Of a stretch of DNA of 61,556 bases, positions 5,664-36,459 are shown in pieces. Below the pieces are notes generated by a model that searched no databases, was not told the DNA's origin, and saw only the letters and a list, made by a program, of their open reading frames with translations. The translations under genes and the position numbers were made by a program. The stretch is taken from assembly GCA_022340665.1 (NCBI GenBank), contig JAJDNM010000027.1, positions 1-61,556 of the forward strand, given 5' to 3'. Position 1 is the first letter of the stretch. Each line of letters opens with the position of its first letter. The DNA comes from Acidobacteriota bacterium. Its GTDB lineage: Bacteria > Acidobacteriota > Thermoanaerobaculia > Thermoanaerobaculales > Sulfomarinibacteraceae.

Positions 5664-5747
5664 ATTCTCAATTTTGAATGTTGAATTCCCACCCACCCGT
5701 TCTCTGGTCGTGCGGGTGGGAAATTCGAAATTCGAAATCCCAAATCA
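5661..5747. repeat. Heptad inverted-repeat element (AAATTCG type)
   Basis: The left arm (TGAATTCTCAATTTTGAATG) and the right arm (period-7 AAATTCG units) pair imperfectly around a core with CCCACCCACCC and GCGGGTGGG. The element occupies the whole spacer between the convergent yraN-like gene and RND permease gene and reaches the stop codons on both sides. Confidence 0.8.
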
Positions 5748-8700
5748 GCTCTCTACTGCCTTCACCTGCCGACTCACTCTCATCTCTTCGGTTGCGGTTC
5801 CAAAGGCCATCTTGAGGTCCTCGAGGATGCGATAGAGCGTCGGTACGAGAAGCAGTGTGATGGCAGTCGCGAAGACGATGCCGTATCCCAGACTCACCGC
5901 CATGGGAATCAGAAACCGAGCCTGCATGCTGGTCTCGAAGATCATCGGTGACAGACCGAGAAAGGTCGTGGCAGTGGTCAACAGGATGGGTCGGAATCGC
6001 CGTTCGCCCGCCTCCCTGATGGACTCGTCCACCGACACACCTTCACGGCGCAGGCGATTGATCAGGTCGACCAAAATAAGCGAGTCGTTGACCACGACGC
6101 CGGTCAACGCAACCATTCCGAACATCGACAGCATGGTCAGGTTGAGACCCATCGCGATGTGGCCGAAGACGGCACCCACGAGGCCAAATGGAATCGCCGA
6201 CATGATAATCAGGGGCTGGGTGTAGGACCTGAACGGAATCGCCAGGAGCGCGAAGATGGCAATCTGAGCCACCAGGAAGTTGACCTTCAAGCTGTCCAGC
6301 GATTCCTTCTGTTCGCGCTGCTCACCTTCAAAGTCGTACGTCAGGCCGGGAAACTCGAGCGCGAGATTCGGCAGCACCTCTTTTCGCAGATCGGCGTTGA
6401 TTTCATTGGCGTTCGCCACGGATGCGTCGACATCGCCCGTCACAGTCACCACGCGACGGCGATCCGTTCGGTTGATTACGGCGTATCCCCGTCCCTCCTC
6501 GACCGACGCGACAATCGTGAACGGAACCTCGCTACCGTCCGGCAGGCGCACCCGCATGTTCTCGATGTCGCCCAAAGACCGCCGCTCATCTTCCGGGTAC
6601 CGAACCATGACCCGGATGTCGTCTCGACCGCGTTGGATCCTCTGGACCTCCCGACCGTAGAAACCTGCACGCACCTGGCGACCCAGATCGGCCAGGGTCA
6701 AACCGGCGGCACGACCCTCTGGCGTCAGCGAGAGCTCGAGCTCCTGCTTGCCCGGAAGGAATGAGTCCGCGATGTCCTTGGTTCCCGGGTACTCGGCTAT
6801 GATCCCCTTGAGCCGATCGACCACGTGAAGCAGGGTGTCGAAGTCCCTGTGAGCGAGCTGCACGCTGATCGCGTCCCCGGGTGAAAAGAGGCTCGACTTG
6901 TATATGAGCGACACCGCACCCGGAACCTCGCCGACGATCTCGCGCCATCGGTTCAGGAGCTCTGAGGAACTGACCGATCGGTGCTCTGAACCCAGAAGTT
7001 CAACGCTGACCTCGCCGAGGTGAGCGGAGTTCTGTGCCACGTTCTGTGACGCCATCGGACCGTGCGCCCCGGCGGTCGGATGTTGTCCCACGGTCGCCGA
7101 GATATGGGTGACGATCGAAGGGGCCCCTTCGGACTTGCCCTCGTCGTACTCCCGGGCGAGCTGTACCGCGCCCTCGGTAATCCTGTCCAGCACCGCCTGC
7201 GTCTGCTCGACCGGCGTCCCCTGCGGCATGGTCAACATCGCCGCCATGCTGTCGGCATCCACGTTGGGCATCATGCTGAACTTGAGGTATCCGCCGACTA
7301 CCACCGCCACACTCACGATGAGGAAAACGAGAGCCATGGAAACCGTCAGATACCGCCACTCGAGGGCCAGGTCGAGGCTCTTCCGATAGGGACCACTGAT
7401 GATCCACTGGAGACCTCTATGGACCGTCTTCTGGACACGCTCGATCGGGCCGAGGATCGGCCTCAGGATCCGGTTGAAGAGATGACCGTCACCCGACAGG
7501 TGGGCCGGCAGGATGAGGAGCGCCTCGACCAGCGACATCAGGAGCACCGAGATGACGACGATCGGGATCTGTTTCATGATCTGGCCCATGCGACCCGACA
7601 CGAAGAGCAGCGGAGCGAAAGCGGCAACCGTCGTGATGACGGCGAAGGTCACTGGCATCGCCATCTCGCGCACGCCGCGGATGGCCGCGTCGAGGGGTTT
7701 GATGCCTTTTTCCAGATAGTTGTAAACGTTTTCGCCGACAACGATTGCGTCGTCGACCACGATGCCGAGGACGACGATAAACGCGAACAGCGAGACCATG
7801 TTGAGGGTGACATCGAAATGTGGGACCAGCCAGAATCCCCCGAGGAACGAGATTGGAATTCCCATGGTGGTCCAGAATGCCAGCCTGAGATTCAGAAACA
7901 GGGCCAGACAGGCAAAGACGAGGATCAGACCAAGGCGGGCGTTTCGCAGCAGCAGGCCGATCCGCTGCCTGAGAATGATCGAATCATCGTCCCAGGTATC
8001 GACTGAGACCCCCGCCGGAAGGGTCGGCTCGAGGTCCTCGATGAAATCCTTGGTCACTTCGGCCACCTCGAGCGCACCTTCGCTGCCGACTCTGTAGACC
8101 TGTATCAGGGCCGCTCTCTTGCCGTTGAAGCTGGTAGCCGTGTCGGTGTCCTCGAACCCGTCGACCACGGTCGCGACATCTGACAGGTAGACCCGTGTCC
8201 CATCTGACCGGGTCACCACGACGATGTCCTCGAATTCGGTGCCGTGATACATCTGGCCCTTGGTCCGGAGCAGGATCTCGCCGCCACGAGTCTTGACCGC
8301 TCCACCGGGTAGATCGAGGGACGACATCCCCACTACGTTGGCCACCTGCTCGAAGCTGAGGCCATATCGCCTCAGATCTTCCTCCGAGACCTCGATCGAG
8401 ATTTCGTAGTTGCGGACACCCGCAATTTCCACCTGAGACACGCCTTCCCGGGCCGTGAGCTCATCTCGAACCGTTTCCGCCAGTGCCTTCAGCGTCTTCT
8501 CGGAGGCGTCTCCGTGGAGCACGACCGTGATCACCCGTCGCCGGGTGTCACCCTCGGCAACCACTGGCTTCTCGGTCTCGATCGGGAAGGTCTCGATCCG
8601 GTCGACCGCAGCCTTGATATCGTCGAGGACCTTTGTGTCGTCCGCGTCCTCTTCAAGCTCGGCGGTGACCACTCCCATGTTCTCTTGCGCCACGGACCGA

Positions 8701-8954
8701 ATTCGCTTGATACCCTCGATCGAGGCGATTGCCTCCTCGACCCGCACACACACACCCTCCTCCGCCTCGGCCGGTGACGCTCCACGATAGGGCACCCGGA
8801 TTGTCACGGTGTCGGTGTCGATTTCGGGGAAAACCTCGACCACGACTCGAGCCAGGGCCAGCGCACCCGAAACCAGAATGAAGATCATCAACATGTTCGC
8901 CGCGACGTGGTTGGCGGCAAACCAGGCCAGCGGTCCCTTGCGGCTGTCTTTCAT
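5745..8954 (-). CDS. RND efflux transporter permease subunit
   Basis: A 1069-aa AcrB/MdtB-type inner-membrane RND pump, the normal length for the superfamily. It has the N-terminal helix, a large periplasmic domain beginning EVFPEIDTDTVTI and PYRGASPAEAEEGV, and an acidic TM4 motif (GIVVDDAIVVGENV) that carries the proton-relay Asp residues. A second periplasmic domain precedes the last TM bundle (GVVVNDSLILVDLIN). It works with the adaptor and outer-membrane factor encoded upstream; its start overlaps the adaptor stop by 4 bases. The substrate range (drugs, lipids or other amphiphiles) cannot be read from the sequence. The motifs do not suggest a CzcA-type metal pump, though this is not excluded. 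Confidence 0.93.
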   Translation of the reverse strand: MKDSRKGPLAWFAANHVAANMLMIFILVSGALALARVVVEVFPEIDTDTVTIRVPYRGASPAEAEEGVCVRVEEAIASIEGIKRIRSVAQENMGVVTAELEEDADDTKVLDDIKAAVDRIETFPIETEKPVVAEGDTRRRVITVVLHGDASEKTLKALAETVRDELTAREGVSQVEIAGVRNYEISIEVSEEDLRRYGLSFEQVANVVGMSSLDLPGGAVKTRGGEILLRTKGQMYHGTEFEDIVVVTRSDGTRVYLSDVATVVDGFEDTDTATSFNGKRAALIQVYRVGSEGALEVAEVTKDFIEDLEPTLPAGVSVDTWDDDSIILRQRIGLLLRNARLGLILVFACLALFLNLRLAFWTTMGIPISFLGGFWLVPHFDVTLNMVSLFAFIVVLGIVVDDAIVVGENVYNYLEKGIKPLDAAIRGVREMAMPVTFAVITTVAAFAPLLFVSGRMGQIMKQIPIVVISVLLMSLVEALLILPAHLSGDGHLFNRILRPILGPIERVQKTVHRGLQWIISGPYRKSLDLALEWRYLTVSMALVFLIVSVAVVVGGYLKFSMMPNVDADSMAAMLTMPQGTPVEQTQAVLDRITEGAVQLAREYDEGKSEGAPSIVTHISATVGQHPTAGAHGPMASQNVAQNSAHLGEVSVELLGSEHRSVSSSELLNRWREIVGEVPGAVSLIYKSSLFSPGDAISVQLAHRDFDTLLHVVDRLKGIIAEYPGTKDIADSFLPGKQELELSLTPEGRAAGLTLADLGRQVRAGFYGREVQRIQRGRDDIRVMVRYPEDERRSLGDIENMRVRLPDGSEVPFTIVASVEEGRGYAVINRTDRRRVVTVTGDVDASVANANEINADLRKEVLPNLALEFPGLTYDFEGEQREQKESLDSLKVNFLVAQIAIFALLAIPFRSYTQPLIIMSAIPFGLVGAVFGHIAMGLNLTMLSMFGMVALTGVVVNDSLILVDLINRLRREGVSVDESIREAGERRFRPILLTTATTFLGLSPMIFETSMQARFLIPMAVSLGYGIVFATAITLLLVPTLYRILEDLKMAFGTATEEMRVSRQVKAVES

Positions 8955-10117
8955 GCCGGTCCTCCCGCCGGGCCGTCGCTCGCCCGCCGCACCTTCATCC
9001 CGTCCGTCACCGCGTCGAGCGCAGTCACAACTACCAGATCACCGTCTTCGAGACCCGCCGAAACGAGGCTCCGCTCGCGATCCGCACGCAGCACTTCCAC
9101 ATTACGAATCTCGAGAGTACCGTTCTCAAAGACCCACACCCGATTGTCCTCTCGAACTGCATAGCGGGGCAGGGACACGACATTGGCAAGCGTGCGGCCG
9201 AAAATCCGTACGTCGGCGAAGGTGCCGGGCAGCAGCGGAGGGTGATCTACGTTGGCTTCGTACGGATCTGCGACCTCGACCACTACGTGAACCATCCTCG
9301 AGATCTGGTCGACCTGGGCTTCCATCCGCGTCACCGTGCCATCCCACACGACCTCGTGGCCTCCGAGCTCCGCGCTGACCTCCGCTCTCGGACCCGAACT
9401 CCGGTTCCCGGAAGGCACGTCGAACCACGCGAGCTCTCGGCTTTCGAGCGGAACTCGCACCTCGACGGTGTCGGTGCCGTAGACGGTGGCGAGACGGCTG
9501 CCGACGCCCACGAACTGGCCGACATCGACGTTTTCAGACACGACCACCCCGTCAAACGGAAGGGACAGCCGGGTTCGCTCCAGATTGAGCTCTGCGACGG
9601 CGAGATCCGCGACGGCCGCCGCGTACTCCGCCTCGGCCTGCCGAATCTGCGGTTCGCGAATCACGAGGCCGGTCGGCTCCTCACCTGGATGGAGTCCGTC
9701 CCACTCTTCCCTGGCCACCTCCGCCTCCGCCTTCTCGCGGTCGAAATTGACCTTTGCTCGAGCCACAGCCGCTTCCGCGCGCTCCATTGCCAGCTCGTAA
9801 TCGCGCGGATCGATGGTCACAAGTACCTCTCCTTTCTTGAAGAAGCCACCCGCGACCACCGATGGGTGAACCCGGATCACCTGGCCCGGTACCTGGGGCA
9901 CCAGGTCGACTGTTACCCGAGGTGCGACCTCACCGTGGCCGGTGACGATGATCGGAGCATCAGCGACTTTCACTTCGATGACCTCGACCAGAGGCCCGAG
10001 GGCCGGCCGTTCCACTCTGGGGGGCGCCTTCCGGGCGGAGGCAATCAGCGCTGCGGCGGCGACGCCCACGACGAGAACGATGACCGGGATGACGAGCTTG
10101 AGAGTTTTCGAAGACAT
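8951..10117 (-). CDS. RND efflux periplasmic adaptor (membrane fusion protein)
   Basis: A 388-aa HlyD/AcrA-type adaptor. One N-terminal membrane anchor (residues about 8-27) is followed by the half-lipoyl motif VPQVPGQVIRVHPSVVAGGFFKKGEVL, an alpha-hairpin rich in Ala/Glu (ERAEAAVARAKVNFDREKA), the second half-motif (LSLPFDGVVVSENVDVGQFV), and beta-barrel and membrane-proximal domains. It bridges the permease and the TolC-like channel in the periplasm. It overlaps the permease by 4 bases and its start shares 1 base with the end of the tolC-like gene, so the three are translationally coupled. Confidence 0.93.
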   Translation of the reverse strand: MSSKTLKLVIPVIVLVVGVAAAALIASARKAPPRVERPALGPLVEVIEVKVADAPIIVTGHGEVAPRVTVDLVPQVPGQVIRVHPSVVAGGFFKKGEVLVTIDPRDYELAMERAEAAVARAKVNFDREKAEAEVAREEWDGLHPGEEPTGLVIREPQIRQAEAEYAAAVADLAVAELNLERTRLSLPFDGVVVSENVDVGQFVGVGSRLATVYGTDTVEVRVPLESRELAWFDVPSGNRSSGPRAEVSAELGGHEVVWDGTVTRMEAQVDQISRMVHVVVEVADPYEANVDHPPLLPGTFADVRIFGRTLANVVSLPRYAVREDNRVWVFENGTLEIRNVEVLRADRERSLVSAGLEDGDLVVVTALDAVTDGMKVRRASDGPAGGPA

Positions 10118-11637
10118 CAGAGCACCTCTCTTGAATTCGGAATGAGGAATTCGGAGTTAGGAATTGTGGATTCGGCCTGTTTCCCACGTTCCTCGGAATC
10201 ACCAACTTCGGCAGATGGAGTGTCTGTGGACCAGTCGCCACCGAGGGAGAGGAAGAGATCGATACGCGAGCTCCATACGTCTGCGGTCGCCGCGAGGTTT
10301 GCCTGCTCGGCGAGCCGCAGCCGCCGTTCGGTCTCGAGCACGGTCAGCAGGCCCCCCACACCACGCTGATACCGCTCCTTGGCCAGGCGGTCGGCCGCTC
10401 GGGCCTCTTCGACCCGCTGGTCCGAGAACTCCCGGTTGCGTTGCGAGGCCTCGCTGAGCACCAAGGCCTCCTCCACGTCGCGCAGAGCGTTGAGGACCGC
10501 CCCGGCATACAACGCGGTTGCCTGCTCGGCCCGCGCCCGGGCTGCGTCGACATCCGCCCGCCGCTGACCTCCGGAGAAGATCGGCCCGACGAGACTGGCG
10601 ATCGCGTTGTAGACGATCCCGTCCACCGACGTCAGATCGGCTAGGGTGTCCGAACGGCCGCCCGCCGACCCGGTCAGGCTGAGGTCCGGATACAGGGTTG
10701 CGATCGCCGCACCGACGCCGTAGGTAGCAGCAGCAAGCTGCATCTCCGCCTGACGGAGGTCCGGCCGGCGATCGAGCAGCTGGGCCGGAAGACCGACCGG
10801 CACCGGATCGAGCGACGGCAGGCGCGGCAGGGTGTCGGGAAGATCTCCCCCACTTCCGGGGCGCCGGCCTACCAGCACGTCGAGGGCAAGCTTGGCCTGC
10901 TCGAGCTGGGCAGCGATCACCGCCTCGGAGGCCCGGGCCGAGGCAAGGTTTTCACGCGCCAGGTGGACCTCGACCGCGTCGGCAATACCCGCTCTGTAAC
11001 GCCGCTCCACCGTGCTCAGGGTCGATTGCCAGCTTTCGGTAATATCGCGATTGATATCCAGTGCCCACCCTGCGGTCGCGACCAGGACACGGGCGCGCAC
11101 CACCGCGCCCACTACCGAGTGGATCACCGCCTCGCGAGACGCTTCCTCGGCGAGCAGGCTCGCCCAGGATGCCTGCCGCGTCCGCTTGAGACGTCCGAAG
11201 AAATCGGCCTGCCAGGAGACGTTGAGATCGTACGAATAGGTCGTCGAGAAGATTTCTCTTCGCCCCGTGCCCGGCAGGACAAAGGACATCTTCTGGCGGG
11301 TCCCACCCGCGCCGTATCCAACCTGCGGCCACATCGCGCCCCCGGCCCTGCGCAGGCCGGCTTCGGCCTCGAGTACCCGCGCCGCCGCGGCCCGCAGATC
11401 GGGGTTGTTGGCGAGGGCCAGTTCGACCAACACGGTGGTTGTCTCGTCACCGAACTCTTGCCACCAGGGCGTTACTTCCGGCAGCGGCTTCGCATCGGCC
11501 CCCGACGCGTGAACAAAGCCGTCGGAAACGTCCGCAGCCGTCGCAGGGCGTTCGGGATCGGGACCGAGCGTGCATCCCACCGCAAGCAACAGGGCGATTC
11601 CCACTCCCGCGAGCCGAATCAATGGCTGATTTTTCAT
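10117..11637 (-). CDS. TolC/NodT-family outer-membrane factor lipoprotein
   Basis: A 506-aa outer-membrane efflux channel. A lipoprotein signal ends in LAVGC (lipidated Cys22), as in the NodT/OprM group. Two OEP repeats follow, with coiled-coil Ala/Arg/Glu-rich helices (LRAAAARVLEAEAGLRRA) and the conserved LLDRRPDLRQAEMQLAAA segment. The last 15 or so residues ([15 protein letters not shown]) are encoded by a heptad intergenic repeat rather than by normal family sequence, so the original stop was probably a little upstream. The gene overlaps tetR by 4 bases. Confidence 0.92.
   Translation of the reverse strand: MKNQPLIRLAGVGIALLLAVGCTLGPDPERPATAADVSDGFVHASGADAKPLPEVTPWWQEFGDETTTVLVELALANNPDLRAAAARVLEAEAGLRRAGGAMWPQVGYGAGGTRQKMSFVLPGTGRREIFSTTYSYDLNVSWQADFFGRLKRTRQASWASLLAEEASREAVIHSVVGAVVRARVLVATAGWALDINRDITESWQSTLSTVERRYRAGIADAVEVHLARENLASARASEAVIAAQLEQAKLALDVLVGRRPGSGGDLPDTLPRLPSLDPVPVGLPAQLLDRRPDLRQAEMQLAAATYGVGAAIATLYPDLSLTGSAGGRSDTLADLTSVDGIVYNAIASLVGPIFSGGQRRADVDAARARAEQATALYAGAVLNALRDVEEALVLSEASQRNREFSDQRVEEARAADRLAKERYQRGVGGLLTVLETERRLRLAEQANLAATADVWSSRIDLFLSLGGDWSTDTPSAEVGDSEERGKQAESTIPNSEFLIPNSREVL
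10131..10176. repeat. Heptad repeat tract (TTCCGAA type) inside the tolC-like gene's 3' end
   Basis: Degenerate GGAATTC-type units (TTGAATTCGG, AATGAGGAATTCGG, AGTTAGGAATTG) form one arm of the repeat family. They are read in frame as the C-terminal tail of the outer-membrane factor, and the adaptor start lies 14 bases further on. Confidence 0.75.
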
Positions 11638-12341
11638 GAGACTACCTCTCGTCCTGGCTCACGATCTTCCCGGATCATCTCCGCGTCGGCGCAGGCGCGG
11701 ATGCCTCCGGCCGAGAACCGAACGAAATGGCTCACATGATCCGCGAGGCGTTCCGGTACCAGATTGGATCTTTCGTGAACCGTGAACAGGTGATAGGTCT
11801 TGAGCACGTGCAGGAGCTGGCCGACCTGTGACATGGTGCACATCCGGGCGGTCTCCGGATCGAGAGGCGGCCCGCACTTGGCCAGGGCAGCGGTGGCGCG
11901 CTCCATTAGCGGTCGGATGAACTCGTTCAGGAAAACGCCTTGTGGAAGCCGCGGAGTGATCATCTCTCGCGACACCAAATCGAGAAAGAGGCGGCCGTGG
12001 CTATCGTCGACCAGAGGCTCGAGGAATCCGTTTGCGAAAGACTGCAAGTACTCCTCGAGAGCCGGCGCCGGGTTCCTCGCCAGCAACTCGTCGAGGGTCT
12101 CGATTCGCCGATCGCGAAGGGCGGTGACCATGGACCGGAAGGTCTCGAGATAAAGGTTTTCCTTGCCGCCGAAGTGGTAATTGACCGAGGCCACGTTGCA
12201 GCCCGCTTCGGTCGTGATGTCGCGCACCGAAGTCGCTTCGAAACCCTTCTCGGCAAAGAACTTCTGTGCTGCACGGAGGATTCGCTCGCGGGTATCCTCA
12301 GACTCCTGAGTTCGACAGACATGGGTGGACGATGCTTCCAT
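11634..12341 (-). CDS. TetR/AcrR-family repressor of the efflux operon
   Basis: A 235-aa regulator. The N-terminal helix-turn-helix reads TRERILRAAQKFFAEKGF with NVASVNYHFGGKENLY as the recognition end, standard for TetR. The C-terminal part is the variable ligand-binding domain. I start at the ATG at 12341; an earlier in-frame ATG at 12365 would place eight residues inside the operator DNA. It is the first gene of the efflux operon, overlaps the tolC-like gene by 4 bases, and probably represses its own promoter through the repeated sites upstream, with release by a pump substrate (inferred from the family). Confidence 0.9.
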   Translation of the reverse strand: MEASSTHVCRTQESEDTRERILRAAQKFFAEKGFEATSVRDITTEAGCNVASVNYHFGGKENLYLETFRSMVTALRDRRIETLDELLARNPAPALEEYLQSFANGFLEPLVDDSHGRLFLDLVSREMITPRLPQGVFLNEFIRPLMERATAALAKCGPPLDPETARMCTMSQVGQLLHVLKTYHLFTVHERSNLVPERLADHVSHFVRFSAGGIRACADAEMIREDREPGREVVS

Positions 12342-12350
12342 GACAACTCC

Positions 12351-12399
12351 CAACAAATGTTTCAAACAATGATTCTAAACAAATGTTTTAAACTGTCAA
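12351..12399 (-). promoter_or_regulatory. Promoter with twin TetR operators for the efflux operon
   Basis: On the minus strand, TTGACA (12394-12399) and TAGAAT (12372-12377) are separated by 16 bases, a good sigma-70-like match. Two copies of an AACAAATGTTTYAAAC motif lie at 12351-12368 and 12377-12394, 26 bases apart. One fills the spacer and the other lies just past the -10. Each contains the palindrome AAACATTTGTTT or a close variant. The layout suits repression by the TetR encoded 10 bases downstream. Confidence 0.7.
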
Positions 12400-29145: not shown

Positions 29146-29574
29146 TTACCAGCTCTTACCGCGGATAATTTCTCGGATTCGCTCTTCGGTGTCCTGGTCC
29201 ACGAGAATCATTTTTTCTGCCTTGGCCTTGTGAATGATTTCGGAAAGCTTCGAGAAGTCGATCGGCTTCTCGAGAAACTCGAGTGCGCCCTGCTTCATCG
29301 CCTCGACACCCTTCTCCACCGTGGCGTGGCCGGTGAGCAGCACCACCTGGATATCGGGTCTGCGTTGCTTGATCCGCTCCAATACCTCGATGCCGTCCAT
29401 TCCGGGCATCTGGAGATCGAGAACCACGACGTCGAAAGAATCGCTGTCGATCAGATCGAGGGCATCTTTCCCGGAGTTGGAGGTGGACACCTCCATGCCA
29501 CGATTTCTCATCCGTTCCGCAAGCGTATCCACGAACTCCTCTTCGTCATCTACCAGTAACACCTTTTCCGTCAT
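29146..29574 (-). CDS. Stand-alone receiver-domain response regulator
   Basis: A 142-aa CheY-like receiver with a short C-terminal extension and no DNA-binding domain. The acidic pair is in LLVDDEEE, phospho-acceptor Asp53 in VVLDLQMPGMDG, Thr81 in LTGHA and Lys103 in EKPID. The extension (about residues 108-142, charged, helical) could dock a partner. It is the last gene of the seven-gene coupled operon and overlaps the preceding kinase-like gene by 4 bases. It is close in sequence to the receiver of the Cmk2-BON fusion. Confidence 0.92.
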   Translation of the reverse strand: MTEKVLLVDDEEEFVDTLAERMRNRGMEVSTSNSGKDALDLIDSDSFDVVVLDLQMPGMDGIEVLERIKQRRPDIQVVLLTGHATVEKGVEAMKQGALEFLEKPIDFSKLSEIIHKAKAEKMILVDQDTEERIREIIRGKSW

Positions 29575-30263
29575 GCTGTCCTCCCATGCGACAGACCCTC
29601 GGGATAGGGAACGTCGAGGTGCAAGGCCGTACCGTCCGGTTCGACCCTGTAGCTGGCCCCGAAAAAACCGAGGATCTCGGAAACACCATCCTGATTCGAC
29701 CCCGGTAAGTCGCTCGGTCCGGTCAAGCTTGAGAGACCGCTGAATGCCACCGTGAAGCCCCGGTTGGCATTTTCGACGGCGGCATATACGGTCCGGGCTC
29801 CCCCAACTCGCGCCAGGGCAAACTCGAATCCTCGCCCGATCAGACTTTCCAACATGAACGGGTTCGTCCGCACGGTTACGGGCTCGCCGGCATCCGAAAC
29901 CAGCAGCTCAGCCTCGGCCGTTTTCGCCTTTCTCGCATACAGCGCAGCCACCAGACCCAGAAGCTCGGTAACCTCGACTTCGGCAAGCTCTTCATCGGCG
30001 CTGTGCGCGAACCGATTGAGGCCGCGCACCACTTCCCTGGCCAGTGTTACCTGTTCCACGATTTTCTTGCTCTGCTCCTCGAAACGAACCGGGTCGACGT
30101 CCTTGCCGTGGGCCAGCATCGCCGCCAAATCCTGCAACAGGCCGGCTTTCTCGTTGATCACCGCGAGCCTGTTGTTGATCTCGTGACTGATGCCGGCGGA
30201 CACATCGCCGAAGAAGCGAATCTCCTCTCGGGCTATGGCCTGCCAGTCGGTGTTCGCCTTCAT
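29571..30263 (-). CDS. Degenerate histidine kinase-like protein (H box kept, ATPase motifs lost)
   Basis: A 230-aa soluble protein. The H box SHEINNRLAVINEKAGLLQ (His27) is nearly identical to that of the full kinase encoded two genes upstream (AHEINNPLAIINEKAGLIK), but the conserved Pro is Arg. The region where a HATPase domain should lie keeps the approximate length and fold-like spacing, yet lacks a clear N box, the DxGxG motif and the GTGLGL motif. It has no membrane segment. It may accept phosphate from or dimerise with the upstream kinase, or act as a phosphotransfer or phosphatase module (inference). It overlaps both flanking receivers by 4 bases. Confidence 0.82.
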   Translation of the reverse strand: MKANTDWQAIAREEIRFFGDVSAGISHEINNRLAVINEKAGLLQDLAAMLAHGKDVDPVRFEEQSKKIVEQVTLAREVVRGLNRFAHSADEELAEVEVTELLGLVAALYARKAKTAEAELLVSDAGEPVTVRTNPFMLESLIGRGFEFALARVGGARTVYAAVENANRGFTVAFSGLSSLTGPSDLPGSNQDGVSEILGFFGASYRVEPDGTALHLDVPYPEGLSHGRTA

Positions 30264-30613
30264 TGCGTTACCGCCTGTTCCATGGCTTCGATCAACAGAT
30301 CGATGTCGAGGGGTTTGGCGAGGTAGCGGGAAGCCTCGGCCGAACCGGCCTTGAAGTCTTCCTCGGACCCGTGTCCGGTGAGAAAGATGTACCGCATGTC
30401 GGGTCGCGCCTTCTCGAGTTTCTTCTTGAGCTCGATGCCGCTGAGATTCGGCATCTTCACATCGAGCACCGCTACGTCATACGGTTTTTCTGCGGCGAGC
30501 TCCAGCGCTCGTTTACCCGAGGTTGACCAATCGGCCTCTATGCCCCTGTAGGAGAGACGTTCAGCGAGAGCCGTGACCAGCTCTTCCTCGTCGTCAACCA
30601 GAAGTACCCTCAT
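30260..30613 (-). CDS. Single-domain receiver protein (CheY-like)
   Basis: A 117-aa receiver with acidic residues in LLVDDEEE, phospho-acceptor Asp51 in VLDVKMPNLSG, Thr79 in LTGHGSEED and Lys100 in AKPLD. There is no output domain. Its start overlaps the end of the dCache kinase gene by 20 bases and its end overlaps the degenerate kinase by 4, so it is made with both. It probably relays phosphate between the two kinase-like proteins or to the fusion protein of the same operon (inference). Confidence 0.92.
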   Translation of the reverse strand: MRVLLVDDEEELVTALAERLSYRGIEADWSTSGKRALELAAEKPYDVAVLDVKMPNLSGIELKKKLEKARPDMRYIFLTGHGSEEDFKAGSAEASRYLAKPLDIDLLIEAMEQAVTQ

Positions 30614-32375
30614 CTGTGGCTCCCTTCTCCTGAGGCTTGGCCAGAGGCAGAATGACGCGAAAACGTGTGCCTTTGCCAGGTTCGCTGTCCACCTCGATGC
30701 TGCCTCCCAGTTCCTGGGCCAGCGTATAGGTGATCGACAAACCGAGTCCGGTACCTCCGTGCTTGCTCTTGGTTGTATAAAACGGCTCGAACACCCGCGT
30801 GAGCTCGTGGTCGGTCATCCCGCAACCGTCGTCCTCAACCTCGATCGCGATCGAATCCGAAGACGGCTGACTGACCGATATCTCGATGTGTCCACCATCC
30901 TCGACCGCCGCAAATGCGTTGTTGATCAGGTTGAGGAGAATTTGCTGTAACTTGCCGCAATTCGTCTCGATCGCGGGAAGGTCTGGGTCGATGTCAATCG
31001 CGACCTCGATTGAACGATACTCCGCTTCCTTGCCCACGAATCCCAGAACCTCGGTAACCGTCTCCTCGAGGTCCACCAGTGTAGTCTCCTGGTCGGTGTC
31101 GCGGGCGAAGTTCAACAGTCTGCGCGTGATGTCCGAGCACCTTTTTACCGATGAGAGAATCGAATCCACGATATCCATCAGCTTCGGGTCGTCGGCATAA
31201 CGATCGGTATACGTGAAGAGGTCTTTGATGAGACCTGCCTTCTCATTGATGATTGCGAGCGGATTGTTGATCTCGTGGGCCACCCCGGCGCCGAGCCGAC
31301 CGAGAGATATCATCTTGTTCGCATACTCCACCTGATGAAGGGTGGCCAGGCGACGCAGATCTGCCAAGCGGATCCTGTTCACGAGATAGGTAGTGACTGC
31401 CAGCACGACCACCAGGATGCCGGAGATGCTGATCGCGAGAAAGCCGATAAGCTGTCGGCGCGCGTCGCGCCAGGGCTCCATCAACACCGCCTTCTGCTTG
31501 ACGATCATCAGGATGAACGGCGTCTGAGGGATGTTCGAATAGCCGATCAGTACGTCGTTTCCGTCCGGAGTCCCGGTCTCGTAGACCCGGGTCGACTCCG
31601 AGTACTCGGGCACCTCGAGGGATATCGTTTCGAGGACGTCGCCGTGCAGCCGAGAGGAGGTCTGCAGCACGCCCTCGCCATTGATGATAAACGCATCTCC
31701 GTTGCCGCTCAGTTCGAGATCGGCCAGCAAGGTATTGAAGAATTCCGCCTCGAGAGATGTTCGGAGCACATAGAAACCGCCGCCGGGTAGCTCGTGCCGT
31801 TCGGCAATCACCAGGTGGGGAACTTGCCGGAAGCCGGGGAATACGTCACTGATCTGCATATACCCGTGATCCCGCACACTCTGAAACCAATCCTGGTCAC
31901 TGTAGTTGACGCCAGCAAGATCGTACGGCCCCACATAACACGTTTGCCGGCCGGAAGAATCGATGACGCCGAGATCGACGAACCCACCGAAGCTCTGCCG
32001 CAGATGACTGAGAATCTCCTCGAGTCGAGCACAGTCGGTGAGTTCGCCGTACTCGTTGTCCTGGACTATGAAATCGAGCGCGGCAGTCCGTTCCAGCAGC
32101 GAGAAGGCTACCACCCGCTTCGTGTTCGATACGGTGCGAGACGTGCGAAGAAGGAACTCTGATTCGATTGACTGTTGCGTCACCCGGTAATCGGCCGCAG
32201 ACATCAAAAGCAGCGGCACGAGTGAAACGACGGTCATGATGAGGACCGTGATCTGCCACAGACGGCGCAAATTAAGGGAGTGTTGTTGTGGCGAGTCAGG
32301 GCCGCCCGGAGCACCCCAGGATGCGGGTCGTTTTCCCAGCTTCCAGCGCTGGTCGGATTGATCCAGCTTCTTCAC
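30594..32375 (-). CDS. dCache-type sensor histidine kinase
   Basis: A 593-aa membrane kinase. TM1 (about 39-60) and TM2 (about 309-332) enclose a roughly 245-residue periplasmic domain of the double-Cache type (VDLGVIDSSGRQTCYVGPYD and GDAFIINGEGVLQTSSRLHG are its two PAS-like cores). There is no HAMP. The HisKA H box is AHEINNPLAII (His367), then the N box LLNLINNAFAA, the G1 box VEDDGCGM and the G2 box GGTGLGLSI, all intact, so it should autophosphorylate. It is coupled to the Cmk2-BON-receiver gene by a 4-base overlap. The ligand is unknown; dCache domains often bind small carboxylates or amino acids. Confidence 0.92.
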   Translation of the reverse strand: MKKLDQSDQRWKLGKRPASWGAPGGPDSPQQHSLNLRRLWQITVLIMTVVSLVPLLLMSAADYRVTQQSIESEFLLRTSRTVSNTKRVVAFSLLERTAALDFIVQDNEYGELTDCARLEEILSHLRQSFGGFVDLGVIDSSGRQTCYVGPYDLAGVNYSDQDWFQSVRDHGYMQISDVFPGFRQVPHLVIAERHELPGGGFYVLRTSLEAEFFNTLLADLELSGNGDAFIINGEGVLQTSSRLHGDVLETISLEVPEYSESTRVYETGTPDGNDVLIGYSNIPQTPFILMIVKQKAVLMEPWRDARRQLIGFLAISISGILVVVLAVTTYLVNRIRLADLRRLATLHQVEYANKMISLGRLGAGVAHEINNPLAIINEKAGLIKDLFTYTDRYADDPKLMDIVDSILSSVKRCSDITRRLLNFARDTDQETTLVDLEETVTEVLGFVGKEAEYRSIEVAIDIDPDLPAIETNCGKLQQILLNLINNAFAAVEDGGHIEISVSQPSSDSIAIEVEDDGCGMTDHELTRVFEPFYTTKSKHGGTGLGLSITYTLAQELGGSIEVDSEPGKGTRFRVILPLAKPQEKGATDEGTSG

Positions 32376-33619
32376 CCGCTCCCGTCCGTCCGTGATTCGT
32401 CCCCACCACCGGAGGCACGCGCCTTTTCATTGGCCTGCCTCAGGGTTTCGCTGAGCGCTTCGATGTCGACCGGCTTGTGCAGGTAGGCGAACGCACCGAG
32501 CTCCATGCAGGTCTGCCGGTCCTCCTCGGAACCGTGGCCCGTGAGAATGATCACCTCGATGTGCGGGTGAGTCTGCTTCACGCGGCGCAGCACCTCGATC
32601 CCGTCGATGCCCGGCATCCGCAAGTCGAGGATGATGACGTCCGGCTCGTCATCCTCCACCATCTTCAGGGCTGATTCGCCGTCATATGCCACGGCCGAAC
32701 CGACATCCCGCATTTCAAGACGTTCGGAGAGCGTCTGCACGAACTCTCGTTCGTCGTCGACGAGCAACACCCTCGACGGTTCCTTGAAGTCCATTTTGCG
32801 ATAAATGTCCGGCTTGTAGAAGTCCTTCCCGACACGGGTTTCCACCGAGCGAACCCCCTCGACCGGCGCTGCGATTGCCTTGAGCTCGTCCTCGAGCCGG
32901 CCGAGCATGAGAACGTTCTTGTTGATGGTAAGGGTCACCGCTCCATCGGAGCACTCGACATCAACGTAATGGCCCTTCTCGGCGAGCGCTCGCTCGACGC
33001 GGGCTGCCACGAAGAAGTCCTCGGCTGCCTTCTTCGAAGACGGCGTCACTTGAACGACATCTTTTTGCAGGCTGCCTACGATCAGATCGACGGCCGCATC
33101 CAGGTCCGTCTTGTCGGTCGGAATCAGCACATCGTAAAGATCCGGATTCCAGGGATCTTGCGAACCCGCCACAGCCAGTACCCAGGCCGTCGCCTTCTCG
33201 TCCCTCCGGCGGACCAACTTGCCGGCCTCCTTTTGCTTGAGGTCCTGTTCTGCAACAGCCCGGTCGATGCGCGCCGCCATGTCGGCGATCAGACACACCT
33301 GAAGAGCGTGGGTGATCGTCCGTGGGATCAGGTGACTGCAAAATCCTTCCAACACCAACTCGTCATCGAGAAGCCGCTCCGCAACCGCGTAGCGGAGGTT
33401 GGCGATGGATCGCTCCGGTTCCCCAGTGAAGCTGTTGAAAACCGATGATTTCGCCGATAGCGATCGCACGAGCTTCTCTTGCGACACGCCGGAAAGCTCA
33501 CTCGCTCGTCGGACGATCTCTTCATCCGCAACGTGCACGAAGCCGGTGCGCTCGAGCAGCAAGGGAACAATTGCTTCCGCTTGGCAGAAACTCCCACTGA
33601 ACACCGAAATGATCGACAT
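32372..33619 (-). CDS. Cytidylate-kinase-like / BON / receiver fusion protein
   Basis: A 415-aa protein with an unusual architecture. Residues 1-185 match the cytidylate kinase-like (Cmk2/AAK_33) family: VHVADEEIVRRASELSG, RYAVAERLL, LIADMAARIDRAV and VRRRDEKATAWV with DPWNPDLYDVLI. The first loop reads SGSFCQAEAIV, not the usual glycine-rich nucleotide loop, so catalysis is doubtful. Residues about 200-268 look like a BON domain. Residues 283-398 are a complete receiver (Asp332 in LDLRMPGIDG, Thr360, Lys382). I start at the ATG at 33619, which shares one base with the SulP stop; the longer frame would lie inside sulP. Its place beside sulP suggests phospho-dependent control of the transporter (inference). 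Confidence 0.85.
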   Translation of the reverse strand: MSIISVFSGSFCQAEAIVPLLLERTGFVHVADEEIVRRASELSGVSQEKLVRSLSAKSSVFNSFTGEPERSIANLRYAVAERLLDDELVLEGFCSHLIPRTITHALQVCLIADMAARIDRAVAEQDLKQKEAGKLVRRRDEKATAWVLAVAGSQDPWNPDLYDVLIPTDKTDLDAAVDLIVGSLQKDVVQVTPSSKKAAEDFFVAARVERALAEKGHYVDVECSDGAVTLTINKNVLMLGRLEDELKAIAAPVEGVRSVETRVGKDFYKPDIYRKMDFKEPSRVLLVDDEREFVQTLSERLEMRDVGSAVAYDGESALKMVEDDEPDVIILDLRMPGIDGIEVLRRVKQTHPHIEVIILTGHGSEEDRQTCMELGAFAYLHKPVDIEALSETLRQANEKARASGGGDESRTDGSG

Positions 33620-35859
33620 CAGGGACCCCCGTCCAGAACCTTGATTTGACCCGCGCGGCCGGTTGTCGTCAACGGGCACGGCTCCTCTTCTCCCTCATTA
33701 TGGGCATGAGCGTGAACCGCCCGAATGGCCTGTTCCATGGTTGGGTAGATGTGGTCGCGACCGATTCGCTCTATCAGGAAGGTCCGCTCCAGGACATCCA
33801 TGACAGACTCGTTAACGCCACTGAACGAGATGTCGACGCCGGCAGTTCGGACCCTGTCGACGAGCAGAGAAAGCGTCTCTTCGCCGGACGCATCGATATC
33901 GCTGATCGCGTTGCTCACGATGATGATGTGCCTCAAGTCTTGTTTCGCCTGCATGCGCTCGTTGATCTTGTCCTCGAGGTAACTCGCGTTGGCGAAGAAG
34001 AGCGGCCCGTCGAATCGGACGACGTCCATGAATCGGCACTCCTCGAGACCGTGTGTTTGTGCGGCCCGCAACGAATCGTCCTCGTGGCGGGAAAGGCTGA
34101 TGACCGTGGGCCGCATGCTCTTGTAGAGGAAGACCGCCACCGAAAGCACGACACCGATCATGATTCCCTTGTCGAGATGTGGGGCGAAGGCAAGAGTCGC
34201 GACGAATGATGTCACCGAGATGATGCCGTCATACCTCTTGGCCTTCCAGGCATGCACGAATCCTGTGACGTTCACCAGCCCGATGACCGCCATCATGATG
34301 ACCGAGGCAAGGACGGCCTGCGGCAGGTGATAGAGCAGAGGCGTAAAAAACAGGAGAACGATGACTACCGTGAAGCTGGTGATCACGCTCGAGAGACCGG
34401 TCTTGCCGCCGGCCTGGAGGTTGACTGCGCTGCGGGAGAAACTTCCCGAGACAGGATAGCTCTGACCGACTGAACCCACCATGTTGGCGAGGCCCTGGCC
34501 GATGAGCTCCTGGTTCGGATCCAGCCGCTGGCCGGTTTTTGCAGCCATCGCCTTGGCGATCGAGATCGCCTCCATGAAGCCGAGCAGGGAAATGATGACC
34601 GTCGCGGTGAGCAGCTTTGGAATGACATTCATGTCCAGCCGAGGTGCCTTGGCCGACGGCAGGCCGCGCGGGATCACGCCGACAACGTTGCCCCCGCCGA
34701 TCATCAACAGGGCATCCGGATCGAGCGGATTGTTGCCGACCTTCAAACGCCAATGGCGACCGTCGGTGGGGCTCCCCTCGGGCAACAGCGCCTGCTCGTA
34801 AAACCTCCCTTGGTTGCCATCTGGAACCCTGGCAAAGACCATCGAGCGCAGCTCCGAACGCAGGGAGGAGATCTCCTCCTTGATCTCCGCGGCGTGCACG
34901 TCGAGCACACCCGCCATATGATGAAGGGCGAGTGTCCTCCCTTCGATTCCGAGATCATCGCGCGCGCCAGGGGCCAACACGAGCGCTTCGGGCTCCCGCG
35001 GTCCGTGGCAGCGCTGGCATTGACTGTCGATCGCTTTGGTTTCGATTTCACTGCTGAGGGATCCCGCGTTCGACCTCACCTCATTCACTCTTTTTTGGAG
35101 GTCCACGGCGAAATTGAATTCCTCGACCAGACTTTCGAGCCGAGAAGACTCGATGTCCGGCACCGCCACCACCTCGTTGTGCTCGAAGTGAAACACCGCC
35201 GAAAGCGCGGTGGTCACGACCACCGCAATCAGAACGTTTGGAATCCGCGGATTGATTCGTCGCAGGCCCATCATGATGGCAAATGCCAGCACGGCCATGG
35301 CCAGGGTCGGCAGATGCGTCCATTCGATCGCGGCTGCCACCGTCCGCGCCACCGTTTCGTAATGGTGCTCCGCCTTTTCCACGCTGACGCCGAAAATCTT
35401 GTCGAGCTGTGAGGTCGCGATAATGATGGCGGCCGCGTTGGTGAAACCGTTGACCACGGGGTGCGAGAGGAAGTTGACCACCACGCCGAGGCGAAGGACA
35501 CCCAGCAGGAACTGGAACAGCCCGACGAGCAGGGCGAGGAGCACGGCGTACTCGATGTACTCGACGCTGCCAGCGGTGGCCAGCGGTTCGAGGGTGGCGG
35601 ATGTCATCAGCGAAACGACTGCAACCGGTCCCGTCGCCAGCTGACGGCTGGAACCGAAGAGCGCAGCCACCATCGGCGGAAGGAACGAGGCGTACAGACC
35701 GAAATGTGGCGGCAGTCCTGCCAGCTGCGCGTATGCCATGCTCTGCGGAATCAACACCAGTGCAACGGTCAAACCGGACAGGAGATCGTCCTTCACCGTC
35801 GACAAGTTGGATTCCTTGATCCACAACAAAAAGGGCAGGATCATTATCAGGACGCGCAC
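33619..35859 (-). CDS. SulP-family anion transporter with periplasmic CxxCH insertion and STAS domain
   Basis: A 746-aa SLC26/SulP carrier, well above the 550-600 residues usual in bacteria. The N-terminal core (SGLTVALVLIPQSMAYAQLA, ATGPVAVVSLMT) is normal through TM7 (208-225). A roughly 155-residue insertion (about 232-388) follows, with a heme-c motif CQRCH at 281-285 and a helical, charged segment. The family sequence then resumes at VVGVIPRGLPSAKAP. A STAS domain fills about 585-715. In the 7+7 topology the TM7-TM8 loop faces the periplasm, where heme c can be attached. The substrate (sulfate, bicarbonate or another anion) is not decided by sequence. The gene is 3 bases after tetR. Confidence 0.9.
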   Translation of the reverse strand: MRVLIMILPFLLWIKESNLSTVKDDLLSGLTVALVLIPQSMAYAQLAGLPPHFGLYASFLPPMVAALFGSSRQLATGPVAVVSLMTSATLEPLATAGSVEYIEYAVLLALLVGLFQFLLGVLRLGVVVNFLSHPVVNGFTNAAAIIIATSQLDKIFGVSVEKAEHHYETVARTVAAAIEWTHLPTLAMAVLAFAIMMGLRRINPRIPNVLIAVVVTTALSAVFHFEHNEVVAVPDIESSRLESLVEEFNFAVDLQKRVNEVRSNAGSLSSEIETKAIDSQCQRCHGPREPEALVLAPGARDDLGIEGRTLALHHMAGVLDVHAAEIKEEISSLRSELRSMVFARVPDGNQGRFYEQALLPEGSPTDGRHWRLKVGNNPLDPDALLMIGGGNVVGVIPRGLPSAKAPRLDMNVIPKLLTATVIISLLGFMEAISIAKAMAAKTGQRLDPNQELIGQGLANMVGSVGQSYPVSGSFSRSAVNLQAGGKTGLSSVITSFTVVIVLLFFTPLLYHLPQAVLASVIMMAVIGLVNVTGFVHAWKAKRYDGIISVTSFVATLAFAPHLDKGIMIGVVLSVAVFLYKSMRPTVISLSRHEDDSLRAAQTHGLEECRFMDVVRFDGPLFFANASYLEDKINERMQAKQDLRHIIIVSNAISDIDASGEETLSLLVDRVRTAGVDISFSGVNESVMDVLERTFLIERIGRDHIYPTMEQAIRAVHAHAHNEGEEEPCPLTTTGRAGQIKVLDGGP

Positions 35860-35862
35860 GAC

Positions 35863-36459
35863 CTACCCCCCCACCCGTTCCGCCTGAACCAACCTTCGAA
35901 CGCCCTCGAGGAAATCTTCGATTAACGAGTCTGCATCGTAAAGGTTGTAGTTCTTCAGCCGGACCAATCCGTCAATCATCATGTACACGAGTAGGGCGGT
36001 TTTGTGCACCGGCAGCTCCCCCATCGTTCCATCGTTTTGTCCGCGTTCAATCGCGTTTTCGAACGCTTTCACGATTCGGTCATAGATTGTCTCCAAAAGA
36101 GCACGAAACTCCTCATTACCTTTGGCCAAGTCATACGCGTGATGCCTGTGAAGAAGCATGAACTGAGCTTCGTTGTCCGCAGCCAGCCGCAAATAGAACG
36201 CCACCAGTTTTTCGAGAGTTTCGATACCCGAAAGGTCCCCGGTCGAAGGCAGGAACTCTTCGAAAGCGTTGTCGATACGATCCTTCGCGTCTTTCAGCGC
36301 CGCCAGAAACAGCTTCTCCTTGCTTTCAAAGTGATAAAAAACGGTCCCTTCCGCCGACTCCGTCATCCGCGCCACTTCAGTTGTCGATGTCTCCTGATAA
36401 CCCTTGGTGGAAAAGAGCCATGTGGCGGCTTCGAGGATTGCTGCTCGCTTGGACTTCAC
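35863..36459 (-). CDS. TetR-family regulator heading the SulP/two-component operon
   Basis: A 198-aa regulator with a typical N-terminal HTH (KRAAILEAATWLFSTKGY, EGTVFYHFESKEKLF) and a helical ligand-binding half (TetR_C-like, with HRHHAYDLAKGNEEF). It is the first of seven genes that are overlapping or 3 bases apart down to 29146. A perfect 20-bp palindrome lies 18 bases before its start at the likely transcription start site, so autoregulation of the whole operon is the simplest reading. The effector is unknown. Confidence 0.92.
   Translation of the reverse strand: MKSKRAAILEAATWLFSTKGYQETSTTEVARMTESAEGTVFYHFESKEKLFLAALKDAKDRIDNAFEEFLPSTGDLSGIETLEKLVAFYLRLAADNEAQFMLLHRHHAYDLAKGNEEFRALLETIYDRIVKAFENAIERGQNDGTMGELPVHKTALLVYMMIDGLVRLKNYNLYDADSLIEDFLEGVRRLVQAERVGG

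Follow-up and report, generated by a model that had tools for sequence, protein, structure and literature searches.

A SulP anion transporter with a predicted periplasmic heme c domain in the linker between TM7 and TM8

The sulP gene analysed here lies in a stretch of 61,556 nucleotides (the window) and encodes a known kind of transporter that carries a cytochrome-like domain, the fold of which is absent from the libraries searched. This domain fills the linker between transmembrane helices TM7 and TM8, where it is predicted to bind a c-type heme on the periplasmic side. In one order of Desulfobacterota, genes for homologous heme-type proteins are linked to [NiFe]-hydrogenase genes, which is new.

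An insert within a SulP transporter

The gene and the parts of its product discussed below are as follows.

33619-35859, minus strand: sulP, SulP/SLC26-type anion transporter with STAS domain and predicted periplasmic heme c insert (746 aa, GTG start)
33727-34023, minus strand: STAS domain, residues 613-711
34693-35169, minus strand: TM7-TM8 insert, residues 231-389 (~158 residues), a helical hairpin plus a four-stranded beta part
35005-35139, minus strand: hairpin helix 1, residues 241-285, ending in CxxCH (AF2 model)
35005-35019, minus strand: CQRCH, residues 281-285, predicted heme c attachment motif with His285 as proximal ligand
34921-34923, minus strand: codon of His313 in an LHxxAG motif, proposed distal heme ligand
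34843-34950, minus strand: hairpin helix 2, residues 304-339 (AF2 model)

Pfam matched Sulfate_transp in two separate stretches of the product (E=3.6e-106) together with STAS (5.1e-15), and the protein passed the curated cut-off of TIGR00815 (sulP; 454 bits against 380 bits). It is an SLC26-type SulP transporter, presumably of anions, and is expected to form a homodimer. With Arabidopsis SULTR4;1, prestin, SLC26A9 and SLC26Dg it shares the Sulfate_transp core, an inferred 7+7 arrangement and the C-terminal STAS domain; none of the solved relatives matched, however, aligns across its insert. Alignments to solved SLC26/SulP structures (phmmer) break at about residue 203-226 and restart at 389-393, a gap that bears out the original prediction, in which the family sequence stopped at about residue 231 and resumed at about 389. 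The position given there for CQRCH (281-285) and the coordinates of the insert, 34695-35165 (residues ~232-389), were likewise right. The whole protein has four cysteines, two of them in CQRCH, and any CxxCH arose in 0.055% of shuffled copies of it.

PXYGLY is a motif of SulP sulfate transporters of clade C (PMC5840216). The window protein reads PHFGLY at this motif, and PxYGLY occurs in 15 other heme-type homologues and is absent from five. Sulfate is the likeliest substrate, with an even chance in our estimate; bicarbonate is also possible.

The insert modelled alone by AF2 (residues 222-392) reached a pLDDT of 85 and a pTM of 0.73. The model runs from a strand into helix 241-285, which ends exactly in CQRCH, and continues through a low-confidence loop and helix 304-339 to four strands. 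His313 lies in the first turns of the second helix, and on this model CxxCH and His313 could possibly form a heme pocket at the hairpin tip. The insert resembles c-type cytochromes and periplasmic heme c sensor domains in its CxxCH, its conserved second histidine, its predicted periplasmic site and the presence of Ccm genes, but it differs from them in belonging to no recurring Pfam cytochrome family and in having no similar fold in the PDB. A Pfam search with six members of the insert family gave Cytochrom_C_2 (cytochrome c') in one only (E=0.019), and neither the insert sequence against PDB sequences nor the insert model against PDB folds gave a significant match. Within the scope of these Pfam and PDB searches, a known heme-domain family was rejected for the insert. 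An additional transmembrane helix was also rejected, as no 19-residue stretch exceeded 1.36 on the Kyte-Doolittle scale in 78 inserts.

CxxCH and a second histidine occur together

We used the insert alone as the query, first against 297 genomes of the same phylum and then against the order, Desulfobacterota and Pseudomonadota. The 297 genomes yielded two proteins of another family (L005, L006) with CLKCH at the same column, and one of the window's own family (L007) with a shorter insert from which the motif was absent. Together these searches gave 78 insert-bearing SulP proteins, 21 with both CxxCH and LHxxAG, 57 with neither and none with just one (Fisher p about 2e-19, kinship ignored). The 21 CxxCH-bearing homologues come from Acidobacteriota and Desulfobacterota; identity between inserts is as low as 21%, yet C281, C284, H285, L312, H313, A316 and G317 are invariant.

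The heme-less inserts lack some 40 residues at the hairpin tip, and a nearby histidine, where present, is one position off. Because CxxCH and LHxxAG always occur together, and tip and motifs are missing together, these sequences suggest that two ligands of one cofactor were lost or gained in concert. The original prediction had named conservation of CxxCH among homologous inserts as one of its tests, and the outcome is mixed but favourable: the motif is invariant in a subset of 21 and absent from 57 relatives, which also lack the hairpin tip and LHxxAG. Its picture of an insert interrupting the family sequence has to be amended in one respect. The insert is real, but it is no pure addition to an ordinary SulP, since a shorter insert, made of a hairpin and a beta part and lacking CxxCH, is widespread at the same TM7-TM8 site, and the heme version has an enlarged tip of the hairpin. 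Since the majority of relatives have no heme, transport itself cannot depend on it.

A stand-alone copy of the insert domain was sought and rejected: in about 1,500 genomes the strong matches all fell within SulP-type frames. Besides these there were a few fragmentary matches and two weak ones, in a 469-aa frame of G466 (E=2.9e-4) and in a 142-aa frame with stops in G798 (E=5.8e-4). Plasmids searched for the insert gave no match.

Heme-type sulP genes in hydrogenase loci

In the Desulfobacterota order of genome G718, nine of the ten heme-type sulP loci examined fall among [NiFe]-hydrogenase genes or immediately next to them (L123, L124, L126-L130, L133 and L134; L135 is the exception). The order in these loci is small subunit, large subunit, cytochrome b, heme-type sulP, hypF, hypD, hypE, protease, hypA, hypB, the usual place of sulP being between the cytochrome b gene and hypF. 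The cytochrome b exceeds the cut-off of TIGR02125. L127 retains the structural-gene side alone and L124 the hyp side alone, with a fragmented hypF frame. Operons for membrane-bound uptake [NiFe]-hydrogenases share this order of small subunit, large subunit and cytochrome b, then hypF-hypD-hypE-protease-hypA-hypB; the heme-type sulP gene between cytochrome b and hypF sets those of the order of G718 apart.

Two further features of these loci were observed. The hypF of the hydrogenase-linked cluster in G698 is split into several frames (L124:3245-5338), through sequence error or decay. The first gene of the hydrogenase/heme-type sulP operon in four genomes encodes an apparently exported protein of ~343 aa with no Pfam match (L123:1447-2478; also L126, L127 and L129).

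The position of the gene, usually directly after that for the hydrogenase cytochrome b and before hypF, raises the alternative that the transporter only anchors, in the membrane, a heme through which hydrogenase or cytochrome b exchanges electrons with cytochromes of the periplasm, and that transport is not regulated at all. Electron transfer would be a fitting role for a heme that has two invariant histidines. Against this, the SulP core and STAS domain are still intact, a single heme on a transporter would make an odd wire, and no hydrogenase genes lie near heme-type sulP genes in Acidobacteriota, the window's own cluster included, or in the order of G583. We consider a pure electron-transfer module unlikely.

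In a third group (L125, L131 and L136) the neighbour of heme-type sulP encodes a universal stress protein. The factor common to these contexts seems to be redox or stress physiology, with no single partner. In G1162 a gene for a protein with five CxxCH motifs (L132:2957-3856) adjoins heme-type sulP.

The gene cluster in the window

In the window sulP is the second gene of a cluster, with the following companions.

35863-36459, minus strand: TetR-family regulator, 3 bases upstream of sulP (Pfam TetR_N 6e-13; same order in Desulfobacteraceae loci)
32372-33619, minus strand: cytidylate-kinase-like plus receiver protein (Pfam Cytidylate_kin2 3.8e-18, Response_reg 9.5e-31); start codon overlapping with the stop of sulP (TGATG)
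30594-32375, minus strand: membrane histidine kinase with periplasmic dCache domain (Pfam HATPase_c, HisKA, dCache_1); GTGA overlap with the preceding gene
30260-30613, minus strand: stand-alone response regulator receiver (Pfam Response_reg 1.6e-23)
29571-30263, minus strand: final gene of the cluster, probably for a soluble histidine kinase (no Pfam match; H-box seen by eye; the homologous position in L034 matches HisKA at 3.9e-5)

The order tetR, sulP, cytidylate-kinase-like/receiver, dCache histidine kinase, receiver and probable kinase thus defines a TetR-sulP-receiver-kinase cluster, which is found in both Acidobacteriota and Desulfobacteraceae. The translational coupling of its genes through the TGATG and GTGA overlaps, and the receiver domain fused to the STAS end in homologues of family f37, would fit a transceptor, in which transport is secondary and the heme-type SulP serves as the sensory input for the co-encoded kinase and receiver proteins. 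However, heme-less SulPs of Desulfobacteraceae have the same cluster order, so the kinase/receiver cluster is not heme-specific; the kinase moreover has a dCache sensor of its own, and no two-component genes of this cluster type were found near the hydrogenase-linked heme-type members. We regard the transceptor as improbable.

The fusion of a receiver behind STAS in the Acidobacteriota family f37 (L005:109-2688 by Pfam, L006:835-3423 by alignment) is an observation in its own right, and direct phospho-control of the transporter through it is possible. Genes that join a cytidylate-kinase-like domain to a receiver are coupled to sulP in two phyla (window 32372-33619; L034:5626-6837). Elsewhere in the window (5745-12365), ORF translations suggest an efflux operon of the RND type that includes a TetR regulator.

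Topology and heme attachment

SLC26 proteins consist of inverted repeats TM1-7 and TM8-14 with a cytosolic STAS domain after TM14 and an extracellular TM3-TM4 loop; their gate comprises TM5-7 and TM12-14, and their core TM1-4 and TM8-11 (PMC7417587). By parity with these repeats and with the outside TM3-TM4 loop, the linker between TM7 and TM8 is placed outside, where it joins gate and core. Lysine and arginine number 15 in 94 predicted cytoplasmic loop residues compared with 3 in 54 periplasmic ones. The membrane part of the full-length AF2 model was poor (pLDDT 57.6), and the topology therefore rests on homology and charge distribution.

The window's own genome encodes the cytochrome c maturation proteins CcmB, CcmC, CcmE and CcmF, and the synthase family PF01578 was present in all 22 related genomes checked. 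CcsBA, another bacterial synthase, attaches heme to short CXXCH peptides, a reaction in which both thiols and the histidine are needed (PMC8112865). By analogy, an exported CxxCH in a cell with Ccm genes is a likely target for heme. The original prediction had put a c-type heme on the extracytoplasmic side of the protein, and it is supported by the invariance of CxxCH in 21 homologues, the restriction of the partner histidine to proteins with CxxCH, the Ccm genes, loop charges consistent with the 7+7 fold and the hairpin-tip model. Heme is very probably bound covalently to the insert, and bis-histidine ligation with His285 proximal and His313 distal is probable.

The same residues could be read otherwise. 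Two cysteines and two histidines (C281, C284, H285 and H313) make a possible zinc set, or the cysteines might form a redox-active disulfide, and heme is itself a prediction from sequence. The invariant CxxCH, with its histidine next to the second cysteine, speaks against both, as do the predicted export of the motif in cells with Ccm genes and the sufficiency of short CXXCH peptides for attachment by CcsBA (PMC8112865). A zinc site or a disulfide in place of heme is in our judgement quite improbable.

A model for redox gating

We propose that the TM7-TM8 linker would form a small c-type cytochrome domain within a SulP anion transporter. Heme on Cys281 and Cys284, ligated proximally by His285 and distally by His313, would sit at the tip of a hairpin resting on a beta base. 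The gate (TM5-7) and core (TM8-11) move against each other during elevator transport, and because the linker joins these two domains, a hairpin that changes with redox state could either lock the transporter or free it. Electron carriers of the periplasm, such as any that receive electrons from H2 oxidation, would equilibrate with the heme, so that uptake of the anion would depend on the periplasmic redox state. For the Acidobacteriota cluster, this signal might be linked to the kinase and receiver proteins encoded alongside, which would act close to STAS. Against the model count the missing hydrogenase linkage in the window's own cluster and the presence of the kinase/receiver genes beside heme-less SulPs. 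As a whole, the explanation that a periplasmic heme c senses redox state and gates an anion elevator seems to us evenly poised between right and wrong; for redox gating of transport taken by itself, the sequences leave the chance slightly short of even.

The heme c redox or gas sensor first proposed for this insert survives in its redox half, which is plausible and gains support from the hydrogenase operons; gas sensing is less likely, as the second invariant histidine suggests a six-coordinate heme. Heme domains in the periplasm do serve as sensors in other proteins, but with that histidine predicting six-coordination and with clusters containing no obvious gas-related genes, control of transport by NO, CO or O2 binding is very unlikely.

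An extension of redox gating is speculative, and we doubt that it holds: [NiFe]-hydrogenase and anion elevator transporter might act as one unit, in which electrons from H2 reach the linker heme and directly open anion uptake, matching acceptor supply to donor supply, and the heme-less hairpin SulPs would be descendants that lost the heme.

Relation to known SulP proteins

Group Ci SulPs of sulfate-reducing microorganisms are ~710 aa long and have a ~90-aa insertion relative to model SulPs; an extra transmembrane helix was proposed for it, and the words 'cytochrome', 'kinase' and 'hydrogenase' are absent from the text (PMC5840216). Matched by length and host group, that insertion is probably the heme-less hairpin found here in Desulfobacterota, and the heme-less insert is thus partly known already. 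In contrast to the published proposal, none of the inserts found here contains a hydrophobic segment of the kind that spans membranes, and the heme form, which carries CxxCH and LHxxAG, is the longer one. The heme form could explain the insertion found in many SulP proteins of sulfate reducers. In the open full-text literature, as distinct from subscription papers and preprints, our searches turned up neither a SulP that bears heme nor one encoded within a hydrogenase operon.

A secondary anion transporter with covalent heme in its moving linker would, if real, be a design apparently undescribed in the literature searched and would tie substrate uptake to the periplasmic redox state. The placement in hydrogenase operons makes a connection between H2 oxidation and the uptake of anions concrete and open to test in anaerobes, for whose transporters there are few functional studies (PMC5840216).

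Evolution of the heme form

A tree was built on the SulP core with the insert excluded; it is a quick tree with long branches and an insecure root. The window protein groups with L011 and L012 (100% SH-aLRT), nested among heme-less Desulfobacterota proteins, and the other heme forms lie elsewhere, with four changes between the heme and heme-less states. A single clade of heme forms, and with it a single origin, was rejected on this quick, long-branched tree (AU p=0.001), and the association of CxxCH with LHxxAG therefore recurs on separate branches. All heme inserts share homology, which favours several losses, or else transfer of the insert, over several independent inventions.
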